Assembly (NCBI GenBank): GCA_027322215.1
Contig: DAHVRW010000005.1
Coordinates: 1-38,186 of the forward strand
DNA from: Marinimicrobium sp.
GTDB lineage: Bacteria > Pseudomonadota > Gammaproteobacteria > Pseudomonadales > Cellvibrionaceae
Direction: 5' to 3'
Length of the DNA stretch: 38,186 bases
The notes beneath the pieces are model-generated. The model ran no database searches. It was given only the letters and a program-made list of their open reading frames with translations, and was not told where the DNA came from. The position numbers were made by a program, and so were the translations under genes. Of the stretch, positions 24,424-27,102 are shown one piece after another. Position 1 is the first letter of the stretch; each line of letters opens with the position of its first letter.

Positions 24424-24876
24424 ATGGCCTGTTACAAACACATAATCGTTGGGGTAGACCTCTCTGATGACTCATCAAAAGTGCTGGCGCGAGCATCGGA
24501 GCTGGCCCGCGCCTGTGGCGCCACGCTCAGTTTGGCTCATGTGATCGAACCATTAACCTTCGCCTATGGCGGGGATATGCCCATCGACCTGTCAGAGGTT
24601 CAGGAGCAGCTTCAGCTTAAGGCACAACAGGAGCTGCAGCGTTTGGGCCAGCTGATCGAGCATCCGGTCAAACACGAACACGTCCTGGTGGGGCAAGCCG
24701 CTACTGAGCTGCGCTATCTGGCCAGCCAGGAAAACGCGGATTTGATCATTGTCGGCAGCCGTGGCCGCAAGGGCTTTGCCCTGCTGCTGGGGTCCACTTC
24801 CAACAGCGTACTACACGGGGCCGGGTGCGATGTTTTAGCTGTGCTGGTAAAGCCCCCGGCTGATCAAACCAAATAG
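24424..24876 (+). CDS. Universal stress protein, UspA family
   Basis: A 150-residue single-domain USP. It has YKHIIVGVDLSDDSSKVLARA at the start, DLIIVGSRGRKGFALLLGSTSNSVLHGAGCDVLAVLV at the end. The glycine motif GSRG-x8-GS is one residue shorter than the G-2x-G-9x-G(S/T) pattern of ATP-binding USPs, as in UspA-like proteins that may not bind ATP; I regard nucleotide binding as undecided. GGGGGT lies 8 bases before the ATG. It is divergent from the membrane protein gene and convergent with uup across a structured gap. Confidence 0.93.
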   Translation: MACYKHIIVGVDLSDDSSKVLARASELARACGATLSLAHVIEPLTFAYGGDMPIDLSEVQEQLQLKAQQELQRLGQLIEHPVKHEHVLVGQAATELRYLASQENADLIIVGSRGRKGFALLLGSTSNSVLHGAGCDVLAVLVKPPADQTK

Positions 24877-24928
24877 CAGAATGAGATACTCACCGGGCTG
24901 GATCCATCAGTCATTAACACGGCTTCAA

Positions 24929-24986
24929 GTGATGTACTCCGTAAGGCGAATCCCAGGCGCTTCGCAGGAGGCCTTATCGGCATCAC
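24929..24986. repeat. Imperfect palindrome, REP-like
   Basis: Nested arms GTGATG / CATCAC (24929-24934, 24981-24986), TAAGGC / GCCTTA (24942-24947, 24971-24976) and GCG / CGC around CTT (24957-24965) fold into one interrupted hairpin of 58 bases. The composition and size recall extragenic palindromic repeats of gammaproteobacteria. No second copy is seen in the window. Confidence 0.4.
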
Positions 24987-25055
24987 GTAAGTCATTTTTA
25001 TCAAAGGATATTTGCCCTTTAAAGCTAAAAAGAATGCCGTTACTCGGGACTGCTG

Positions 25056-25160
25056 GGGCCGTGCAGGATGAGTGTTCAGCAAGCCTCACAAGAGGGATCT
25101 TGTGGGGCAGTCCCCAGGGAGGGTCCACGACGTTTGCTGAACACTCATCCTGTACGGCCC
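25056..25160. repeat. 27-bp inverted repeat with nested hairpin
   Basis: Arms 25056-25082 and 25134-25160 are complementary over 27 positions with one mismatch; the 19-base core is CAGGATGAGTGTTCAGCAA. The 51-base centre contains a second stem of 12 pairs (25083-25094 with 25097-25108 less the loop GGGA; core CACAAGA / TCTTGTG, one G-T pair) directly abutting the left arm. Far too long for a simple terminator; compatible with a small non-autonomous element or a structured RNA. Confidence 0.65.
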
Positions 25161-25206
25161 GGGGGCTGACTTACGAAGCTGCAGACCTTCCAGCGTGCAC
25201 GTAGAC

Positions 25207-27102
25207 TTAGTCCAGCTGCATATCCTCCAGCTCAGCCCAGCGCTCGAAGCATTGCTCCAGCTCCTTCTCCAACTGCGCCATCTGCTGCATATGCCTCTCG
25301 ATCTCCGACGCCTCACCCGCGTAAAAATCCGGCTCCGCCGCTTGCGCTTGCAGGGCCGCTAACTGCTCCTCCAAAACTTCAATGCGCCCGGGTAACTCGT
25401 CAAATTCACGCTGTAATTTATAACTCAGTTTCTTACCCTTGGACCGCTTTGGTTCAGCAGGCGCAGCTGCGGCCGGCTTGGCCTCAGCCGCTTCAGCGGG
25501 AGCATCCTCCTCGGTCCAGCGACCGCCCTGGCGGAGCCAATCATCGTAGCCGCCCACATACTCCTGTACCCGGGCTCGACCCTCGAAAGCGATTACGCTG
25601 GTGACCATATTGTTCAAAAACGCCCGGTCGTGACTTACCAACAGCACGGTGCCGTCGTATTCCATTAATATTTCTTCCAGCAGCTCCAGCGTTTCCACGT
25701 CGAGATCGTTGGTGGGCTCGTCAAGCACCAGGAGGTTGGCCGGCTTGCTGAACAACTTGGCCAACAGCACCCGGTTGCGCTCCCCCCCCGACATGGCACG
25801 CATGGGTGTGCGCGCCCGCTCGCCGGTAAACAGGAAGTCACCCAGATACGAAATAATATGACGGGACCGGCCGTTAAGCTCAATGAACTCTCGCCCCTCG
25901 GCAATGTTGTCCACCGCGCTTTTGTCCAGGTCCACCTGATCGCGCAGCTGGTCGAAATACGCCACGGACAGATTGGTGCCCAAACGCACTGTGCCTTTTT
26001 GAGGCTCCAGCTCGCCCAGAATCAGTTTTAATAACGTGCTCTTGCCCGCGCCGTTCGCCCCCACTAAACCAATGCGGTCGCCGCGCATGATCACGGTCGA
26101 AAAATCTTGCACAATTTCCTTGTCGGGATAGGCATAACTGACGTTCTTGAGCTCGGCCACCAATTTGCCCGAGTTTTCTCCGGAGCTGACGGAAAATTTG
26201 GCATTGCCGATGAGCTCACGCCGCTGACTACGCGTCTCGCGCAGGGCCTTAAGGGCCCGCACCCGGCCCTCATTACGGGTTCGCCTCGCCTTGATGCCCT
26301 GACGAATCCAGGCCTCTTCCTGGGCGAGTTTTTTATCAAACAGTGCGTTGTGGCGCGCCTCTTCCGCCAACGCCTGCTCCCGATAGACCAGATATCGTTC
26401 ATAATCACCTGCCCAGGTGCGTATCTGGCCACGGTCGAGCTCGACAATGTGAGTGGCAACGTTCTGCAGCAGGGAGCGATCGTGAGTGATAAACACCAGA
26501 GCGCCGGTGTAGCTCAGAAGCTGTTTTTCGAGCCATTCAATGGCCGCGATATCCAGATGGTTCGTGGGCTCATCCAGCAGCAATATATCCGGCTCGGCCA
26601 CCAGCGCCTTAGCTAGAGCTACCCGCCGTCGCCAGCCGCCGGATAATTCCCTCATGAATCGCTCGCCCGGCAACTCGAGCCGGGTCAGTACCGTTTCCAC
26701 CTGCTGCTGCAGTTGCCAGCCGTCTCGCGCTTCGATCTGTTGCTGTAACTGAGCCATGCGGTTCAAGCTGTCTTCGTCCGCCTGTTGCGCCAATCCATGA
26801 TATTCGCTCAACAAAGCGCCCATGCCCTCTACACCATCGGCGACCACATCGAATACCCGGCGGTCGTCGGCCTCGGGCAGGTCTTGCTCAAGGCGCGCCA
26901 GGCGGATCCCGGGGTCGCGACTGATGCTGCCGCTGTCCAGATCAACCTCACCAGCCAGCACTTTAAGCAAGGTGGATTTACCCGTGCCGTTGCGCCCAAT
27001 CAAGCACACTCGCTGGCCCCGTTCTATATTAAGATCCACATTATCCAGCAGGACCTGCAACCCGTAGCTTAAGCTTGCTTTATCAAGAGTAATCAAAGGC
27101 AT
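25207..27102 (-). CDS. uup: ABC-F ATPase Uup
   Basis: A 631-residue soluble ABC-F protein with two ATPase cassettes. First: Walker A GRNGTGKST (K42), signature LSGGWRRRV, Walker B ILLLDEPTNHLD. Second: GANGAGKST, MSGGERNRV, LLVLDEPTNDLD. The linker between them (about 235-310) is basic and helical. A P/A-rich stretch (about 530-560) leads to a C-terminal coiled coil (KLQREFDELPGRIEVLEEQLAAL onward), the DNA-binding-type domain that marks Uup among the ABC-F proteins. Uup is linked to transposon excision and to ribosome or branched-DNA functions in E. coli. Start MPLITLDKASLSYG is canonical. Confidence 0.93.
   Translation of the reverse strand: MPLITLDKASLSYGLQVLLDNVDLNIERGQRVCLIGRNGTGKSTLLKVLAGEVDLDSGSISRDPGIRLARLEQDLPEADDRRVFDVVADGVEGMGALLSEYHGLAQQADEDSLNRMAQLQQQIEARDGWQLQQQVETVLTRLELPGERFMRELSGGWRRRVALAKALVAEPDILLLDEPTNHLDIAAIEWLEKQLLSYTGALVFITHDRSLLQNVATHIVELDRGQIRTWAGDYERYLVYREQALAEEARHNALFDKKLAQEEAWIRQGIKARRTRNEGRVRALKALRETRSQRRELIGNAKFSVSSGENSGKLVAELKNVSYAYPDKEIVQDFSTVIMRGDRIGLVGANGAGKSTLLKLILGELEPQKGTVRLGTNLSVAYFDQLRDQVDLDKSAVDNIAEGREFIELNGRSRHIISYLGDFLFTGERARTPMRAMSGGERNRVLLAKLFSKPANLLVLDEPTNDLDVETLELLEEILMEYDGTVLLVSHDRAFLNNMVTSVIAFEGRARVQEYVGGYDDWLRQGGRWTEEDAPAEAAEAKPAAAAPAEPKRSKGKKLSYKLQREFDELPGRIEVLEEQLAALQAQAAEPDFYAGEASEIERHMQQMAQLEKELEQCFERWAELEDMQLD

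Follow-up and report, generated by a model that had tools for sequence, protein, structure and literature searches.

A 27-bp inverted repeat with a branched centre separates two convergent genes in a Marinimicrobium sp. contig, and the question is what kind of element it represents. The window analysed here is the whole 38,186-nucleotide stretch of contig DAHVRW010000005.1. A reading made from the letters of the window and its open reading frames (the sequence-only reading) had left the choice between a small non-autonomous mobile element, a REP-type doublet and a structured RNA, with a local chance inversion as the null case. On the evidence below we regard it as reasonably probable that the hairpin is one copy of a high-copy, non-autonomous, REPIN-like mobile repeat of Gammaproteobacteria that is related to the TwoAYGGAY motif, folds strand-specifically and carries CsrA-type loops.

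Results

The hairpin is a three-way junction

The flanking open reading frames, usp-like (24424-24876, + strand) and uup-like (25207-27102, - strand), bear the names assigned in the sequence-only reading and converge on the spacer that holds the element (Table 1). The arm GGGCCGTGCAGGATGAGTGTTCAGCAA pairs with its counterpart over 27 positions as had been claimed, and the single position then counted as a mismatch, the only one in the outer stem that is not Watson-Crick, is a wobble on the + strand (G25063·T25153). An inverted-repeat search recovered the same repeat and extended it to 32 nt at 91%. The minimum free energy of 25040-25175 (+ strand) is -84.6 kcal/mol compared to -50.0 ± 3.8 for 200 dinucleotide shuffles (z = -9.04), none of which reaches the native fold energy. 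The 51-base centre (25083-25133) is also as described. It contains two small hairpins rather than one, and the whole is therefore a three-way junction, in keeping with the branched structure between convergent genes that had been proposed. Inner hairpin 1 abuts the left arm as stated, but has 10 pairs (25083-25092 with 25099-25108), or 11 if A25093-T25098 closes the loop, instead of the 12 claimed. Inner hairpin 2, which had escaped the earlier reading, is built from GTC/GAC and CCC/GGG pairs and is followed by an ACGACGT box that extends to 25133; in other copies its loop reads ATGGAT, ACGGAT or AGGGAT.

The GGA strand of the element is sense to usp. Neither a sigma-70-like promoter nor a terminator-like site was found in 24700-25400, the window element has no GC stem followed by a T run as in an intrinsic terminator, which agrees with the earlier judgement that the structure is unlike a terminator, and there is no GTAG beside the arms. 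Upstream lies a remnant of a partner, hairpin A, that has retained its 5' flank and one arm while the core and the other arm are deleted. The inverse of the conserved outer tail, GCTTCGTAAG, is found outside hairpin A in loci L003 and L007.

Table 1. Features of the usp-uup spacer (window coordinates)
Feature	Position	Strand	Basis or remark
usp-uup spacer, insertion, 330 bp	24877..25206	.	absent from sister genome G001
Remnant of partner hairpin A, outer motif CTCCGTAAG	24937..24993	-	by-eye alignment with intact hairpin A of L003, L007, L011
Left arm of outer stem, hairpin B, 27 nt	25056..25082	+	sequence, fold, inverted-repeat search
Inner hairpin 1, loop AGGGAT at 25093-25098	25083..25108	+	sequence, fold
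Inner hairpin 2, loop AGGGA at 25116-25120, then TCCAC bulge	25110..25131	+	sequence, fold; same pairs covary in related copies
Right arm of outer stem, hairpin B	25134..25160	+	sequence, fold, inverted-repeat search
Covariance model R1 match, 97.5 bits	25068..25148	+	window copy outside the 16 R1 sequences
Outer tail CTTACGAAGC, conserved 3' of hairpin B	25170..25179	+	alignment of copies

The element is a high-copy, patchily distributed repeat

The suggested search of the genome and its relatives returned many further copies. G000, the genome of the window, is a 2.5 Mb draft with 86.8% completeness. Counting the window copy, it has 12 near-full copies that align over at least 123 of 136 bases with 86-100% identity, besides a further one at 77% and a number of partial ones. 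In G001, of the same genus, almost all of the 105-base hairpin is matched at 40 or more places; there were 71 candidates, of which 40 were scored. Hits restricted to the centre proved to be second hairpins that lie in inverse orientation and share this centre, with a different outer stem.

We then searched with a covariance model, R1, whose alignment comprised 16 hairpins, drawn from either kind, out of 37 that passed a pairing filter; three G026 hairpins, which MAFFT had shifted by one column, and the window copy, which is one base shorter, were left out of the alignment. With the best 38 candidates per genome scored, R1 matches at E ≤ 1e-4 in 82 of 120 family genomes, representing 21 of 32 genera, and has no match in the other 38. 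Within 400-kb stretches it has 12 matches in G114. The 19 in G001 include three weaker ones that fall on the opposite strand of an element already in the count, and the two stretches point to on the order of 120-160 copies per genome if these are evenly spread. An unbiased scan of 800 kb of G114 for long hairpins (arms of at least 18, spacer above 20) yielded 37, among which we read 28 as the element, 8 as members of an attC-like array and 1 as another repeat.

Among the matches listed, an exact 24-base core pattern occurs in at least 116 stretches, with contigs named Microbulbifer, Marinobacter, Xanthomonas, Stenotrophomonas, Rheinheimera, Oceanisphaera, Halopseudomonas, Alcanivorax, Marinimicrobium and others. 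A 22-base pattern was looked for in evenly drawn genomes and detected in 10 of the 369 from the class; of the 398 from the phylum 13 had it, every one of them a member of the class. A single genome has up to 99 matches, the backwards control gives 0, and in the genus g218 the pattern is matched 47, 45 and 60 times in G437, G811 and G902 and not at all in G328. These pattern-based figures represent one core variant and are thus lower bounds. Such a patchy and high-copy distribution is as expected of a mobile element. Plasmids and phages gave no match for the window copy or for one copy of g4, a group inferred from its copies to be most like Microbulbifer, and viral contigs gave none to one exact pattern. 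Core matches were also seen in L293 (a record titled Bacillus subtilis SK7B5) and L329 (a Klebsiella pneumoniae MAG), hosts of a kind in which the family was otherwise not seen, and these possibly reflect contamination or mislabelling.

Insertion, turnover and pairing of copies

In G001 the stop codons of uup (protein 86% identical) and usp overlap by two bases, and in G002 they are 28 bp apart. The window spacer is therefore best read as an insertion, and the empty site looked for in a relative is the one in G001. Target duplications, which had also been proposed as a check, are not recognisable at the window site, where both gene ends differ as well; of the terminal inverted repeats and target-site duplication of a MITE of a DDE transposon, what was observed is a short outer inverted motif, GCTTCGTAAG/CTTACGAAGC. 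Separately, TTATTCCGGACAGCAGTGCGC-like and CCCGCCTTCGCGGGCATGACGAGAA-like repeats adjoin the element in G000 (flanks of L002, L004, L006 and L009), pointing to insertion hot spots or nested repeats.

Occupancy changes between close species, with sites gained, lost or exchanged. A ptsP-like gene (named by eye) is present in all 48 g4 genomes searched, and at 24 of 30 fetched loci examined the element beside it is intact in G114 and in G035, there with a different downstream gene, while five loci hold what by eye look like remnants (L176, L179, L181, L184, L187) and no element was seen in the other 17. For 10 of 26 G114 elements both flanks could be matched in the G153 stretch examined, the other 16 falling outside the comparison. 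Three of these ten sites carry the same element, once with a ~60-base insertion; three carry a different one, once in opposite orientation; one is a mosaic of two elements, two have a stub or nothing, and one is a dimer whose two stems are apparently exchanged. Viewed from G153, two further sites behave differently, 363773 being shared almost letter for letter and 329721 absent from G114. That the same element is kept at some sites between related species could reflect persistence or host selection.

Many copies come in pairs. Of 283 elements 101 belong to a close pair (<300 bp), and in 53 such pairs the orientation is 44 times (-,+), 6 times (+,-) and 3 times (-,-), or 43 of 52 (-,+) in a slightly different count, with a median spacer of 100 bp for (-,+) pairs. 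The window fits this dimer pattern, as hairpin A, intact in the loci of Table 1, has left its remnant beside hairpin B. We infer that the dimer was the original unit and that at the window partner A was deleted while hairpin B stayed intact; as 182 of the 283 elements stand alone over a range of 300 bp (24 of all 283 being close to the edge of a locus), the dimer as a unit is a guess.

Stems differ from copy to copy and remain paired

The covariance analysis that had been called for gives a strong signal. In the 16-sequence alignment 99.2% of the cells are paired and 17 of 31 pairs have changed on both sides; 0 of 500 shuffles reach either value, and sliding the partner by one column lowers pairing to 43-49%. 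In most lineages the outer stem is different in nearly every copy, yet 96-98% self-complementary. For g4 and the rest of the family genomes, identity between copies is 56% over the 18 inner bases of the arms and 77% over the core, compared to 98% complementarity within a copy, and arms with 90% or more likeness occur in only 3 of 1035 pairs; the class-wide set gives 48% between copies, 96% within and 68% for the core. In the window's own genus, by contrast, arms of such likeness are found in 177 of 666 pairs, which we read as a probable recent burst of family B. Copies whose core has the most frequent length were compared throughout (46 of 70 for g4 and the rest of the family genomes, 38 of 92 for the class, 37 of 48 for the window's genus). 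Arms that diverge while staying complementary may result from template-switch correction of the palindrome or from exchange between copies, and the mosaic site between G114 and G153 suggests the latter.

GGA is present in the loop of hairpin 1 for 204 of the 220 elements in which this hairpin was scored, and for 83 of 93 in the class-wide set. The scan that collected the elements required hairpin 2 and the outer arms, not hairpin 1; the g1 and g4 loci had partly been fetched by searches that saw hairpin 1, and the class-wide set alone was fetched by hairpin 2 only. An A stands two before GGA in 167 of 207 loops, the next letter is free, and T or C follows GGA in 199 of 207. A variant core was noticed at six G114 positions (C1:46070, 111366, 410725, 492071, 497050, 707735), where the 3' box is interrupted or substituted by a GGGGGGCGCCTAGCTCG-like stem, which looks like a swappable third helix.

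Folding is constrained on the GGA strand, whatever the host gene orientation

When a transition strikes a palindrome, one strand is left with G·T and its complement with A·C, and either outcome is equally likely for a given strand. On the GGA strand the outer stems of 222 elements contain 277 G·T versus 25 A·C (125 versus 18 in the class-wide set alone). Elements with more G·T than A·C outnumber the opposite 155 to 7, with 60 ties, and do so in each set (g1, 45 to 0 with 12 ties; g4 and other f1, 47 to 3 with 20 ties; class, 63 to 4 with 28 ties). P-values over related copies are too small; the fair test, with one value per taxon (18 taxa), gives 13 to 2 with 3 ties (p 0.007). The excess demonstrates that folding of the GGA strand is constrained. 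An attC-like array used as positive control (identified by eye) shows 17 G·T and 0 A·C over 13 hairpins; as attC sites fold as single-stranded DNA, the test detects strand-specific folding and cannot separate RNA from single-stranded DNA. Such attC-like arrays (core ...GGGAGCGCAGCGACC), with the same excess, lie at G114:C1:548614-568183 and G153:C2 ~759117-764512. If the origin is taken to lie at base 1, elements would be distributed about evenly over the replication strands (27 leading, 29 lagging, among the matches listed in the single-contig genomes G035, G094, G114, G118 and G139).

In tandem gene gaps the orientation to the genes is random (42 elements sense, 48 antisense), and the wobbles are biased alike in sense (54 G·T : 3 A·C) and antisense copies (64 : 5); gene context follows a crude longest-ORF rule, by which 55 of the 222 elements are 'inside' such an ORF and 14 are unplaceable. 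Since antisense copies keep an equal excess, the constraint is not due to host read-through and must come from the element.

Relation to TwoAYGGAY, Ysr224 and CsrA

At gathering thresholds Rfam yields nothing in the window, and at permissive thresholds mostly miRNA models, which match any long hairpin and were disregarded. The TwoAYGGAY model (RF01731) has no match in the window region even at E 10. At E ≤ 1 it matches in 7 of 10 element-bearing genomes (53 matches in G651, 10 in G114, 1 in G000) and in 0 of 14 control genomes, with one match only over the gathering cut-off across the ten; it has none in G412, G231 and G243 despite their 99, 42 and 9 core-pattern hits. R1 hits the same places at all five RF01731 loci tried (L414, L415, L416, L419, L420), and the two models coincide also in L149, L212, L218 and L237. 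Thus, the RF01731 matches are these elements. The TwoAYGGAY alignment shows an outer stem, a CAUGGAUG hairpin, AG, a second hairpin and a UUUAC/CGNCG box, i.e. a long outer stem around two hairpins with A-Y-GGA-Y loops, an AG joiner and the same box as the element. The window loops AGGGAT and AGGGA differ in being A-N-GGA rather than strict AYGGAY. The structural kind is therefore already known, and the window subfamily is beyond the reach of the Rfam model.

In the accessible text of the cited sources, TwoAYGGAY was listed in 2010 as an RNA candidate with no function from the gut, gamma-proteobacteria and Clostridiales (PMC2864571) and was predicted in 2014 to bind CsrA (PMC4333381); multi-copy mobility, dimers or per-copy stems were not met in the accessible portion of the former. 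More generally, literature searched by sequence strings and topic, largely outside subscription journals and in partial texts, yielded no description of a mobile, partly dimeric repeat with per-copy stems and a strand-specific, orientation-independent constraint. A second Rfam family is also involved: by eye, the consensus of the Yersinia sRNA Ysr224 (RF02770) is the reverse complement of the element core. Ysr224 differs in that it is listed as an sRNA with expression, read from the complement of the GGA strand, and is counted among the most prevalent bacterial sRNAs in the available part of that report (PMC9029176). Ysr224 matches were seen on the opposite strand of the repeat at L415:1529-1618 and L419:1527-1627. 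A Ysr141 match in L272 is unrelated, lying in a coding-like stretch (by eye) with no hairpin found nearby.

TwoAYGGAY and CsrB share the Rfam clan CL00106. The loop bound best by RsmE/CsrA is A(N)GGAX, described in the accessible text as a high-affinity RsmE hexaloop (PMC4005645). The letters around GGA in the hairpin 1 loops of the family agree with it; hairpin 1 of the window presents such a loop on a stem (AGGGAT), and hairpin 2 has the five-base AGGGA. A csrA gene is present in 10 of 11 genomes searched, including G001, and was not found in the G000 draft at its 86.8% completeness. An RNA reading through from usp would present two CsrA/RsmE-type loops and would probably bind CsrA.

Weighing the alternatives

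If the hairpin were a regulatory RNA under host selection, either a CsrA sponge or a CsrA-binding element of the 3'-UTR that is retained where transcription from usp passes through it, the fit of the loops to the RsmE hexaloop, the clan shared with CsrB, the predicted CsrA binding of TwoAYGGAY, the occurrence of csrA and the sense orientation to usp would all be accounted for. The random gene orientation, the turnover of sites between close species and the strand-specific folding of antisense copies, which host read-through could not maintain, speak against this, and we consider it unlikely. In the mobile-repeat reading that we favour, CsrA binding would be a property of the element and not the reason for its staying at the usp-uup site. 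A host role as CsrA sponge is possible; it leaves the antisense copies unexplained. Dedicated sponges of the CsrB/RsmZ type likewise present GGA in hairpin loops. They are single dedicated genes with their own promoter, in contrast to a dispersed repeat with random orientation and a long variable outer stem.

Turning to mobility, a REP or BIME mobilised by a RAYT (Y1/HUH) transposase would resemble the element in being a small, mostly intergenic, high-copy and strand-specific palindrome that forms inverted dimers, and Y1_Tnp matches are present in 9 of 12 genomes searched. However, there is none in the element-rich G000 and G001 (E ≤ 1e-4) or G118. A hairpin of ~105 nt is far larger than REP palindromes, given as 20-50 nt in the accessible text (PMC8266576), and its conserved unpaired part is the GGA loop and not a GTAG tag. 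A RAYT origin is thus very improbable, and of the REP-type doublet proposed in the sequence-only reading the doublet holds for part of the copies, in (-,+) arrangement, whereas the strict REP character does not. CGTC-tagged REPs are ruled out as well, with stems of 8-9 bp in the part of the source available (PMC3733652). The attC sites of integrons share the strand-specific folding with the same G·T excess and are distinguished by a different core and by their cassette-array arrangement, which the element lacks.

Movement through RNA by a resident reverse transcriptase would agree with the RNA-like covariation and wobble use, and RVT_1 matches occur in 4 of 11 genomes. G000, G001, G153, G118, G902 and G437, with many copies each, have no such match at E ≤ 1e-5; a transient supply could rescue this reading, but copies were not found in plasmid, phage or viral records, and we give it as little credence as the RAYT origin. 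No autonomous copy was seen in two hairpin-flanked (-,+) intervals of G114, which contain only housekeeping-like ORFs that by eye resemble fmt, rsmB, orn, rsgA and psd. As RAYT and reverse transcriptase are both without match in element-rich genomes, the mobilising factor would be of another kind, or was transient.

A role as structural barrier or as bidirectional terminator would suit the window position between convergent genes. In a smaller set elements lie near gene 3' ends (median 65 bp), in 13 convergent versus 3 divergent gaps; this set used a loose GGA count and at least one of its hairpins (G001 151028) is probably another repeat. The larger set shows no clear preference for convergent over divergent gaps (35 versus 28), and with no T run or terminator-like site at the window this explanation is slightly less credible still. 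A local chance inverted duplication, finally, is refuted by the other copies, the covariation and the empty site in G001, and its probability is next to nil.

Discussion

The window hairpin has been inserted between convergent genes, it has many copies, its sites turn over, and some copies form inverted (-,+) dimers ~100 bp apart. The GGA strand, and only the GGA strand, is kept foldable into an outer stem with two GGA-loop hairpins. Together with the empty site and the covariation, the copies support the small non-autonomous mobile element among the kinds originally suggested.

In the mechanism that we favour for such a mobile repeat, the GGA strand would fold when single-stranded, either as RNA or as single-stranded DNA in the manner of an attC site. 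A mobilising factor acting in trans may recognise the folded strand through its three-way junction and loops, and would move the hairpin, singly or as a dimer, to intergenic positions close to the ends of genes. Copies that happen to be transcribed in sense would expose their CsrA-type loops.

More tentatively, TwoAYGGAY could possibly represent, in its folded state, a novel type of bacterial mobile element, namely a hairpin dimer that is selfish and is neither REP/RAYT nor an IS-derived MITE. Such an element would be recognised by its single-stranded three-way junction, would renew its stem arms while keeping them complementary and, by carrying CsrA-decoy loops, would fill genomes with potential CsrA sponges by transposition.

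The finding connects an orphan RNA motif, for which a role with CsrA has been predicted, with a mobile DNA repeat that populates the spaces between genes in many Gammaproteobacteria. At least one Rfam 'sRNA' family, Ysr224, may be read-through of the same repeat, as its matches lie on the opposite strand of the element. This bears on counts of the commonest bacterial sRNAs, which in such cases may be counts of a mobile repeat.
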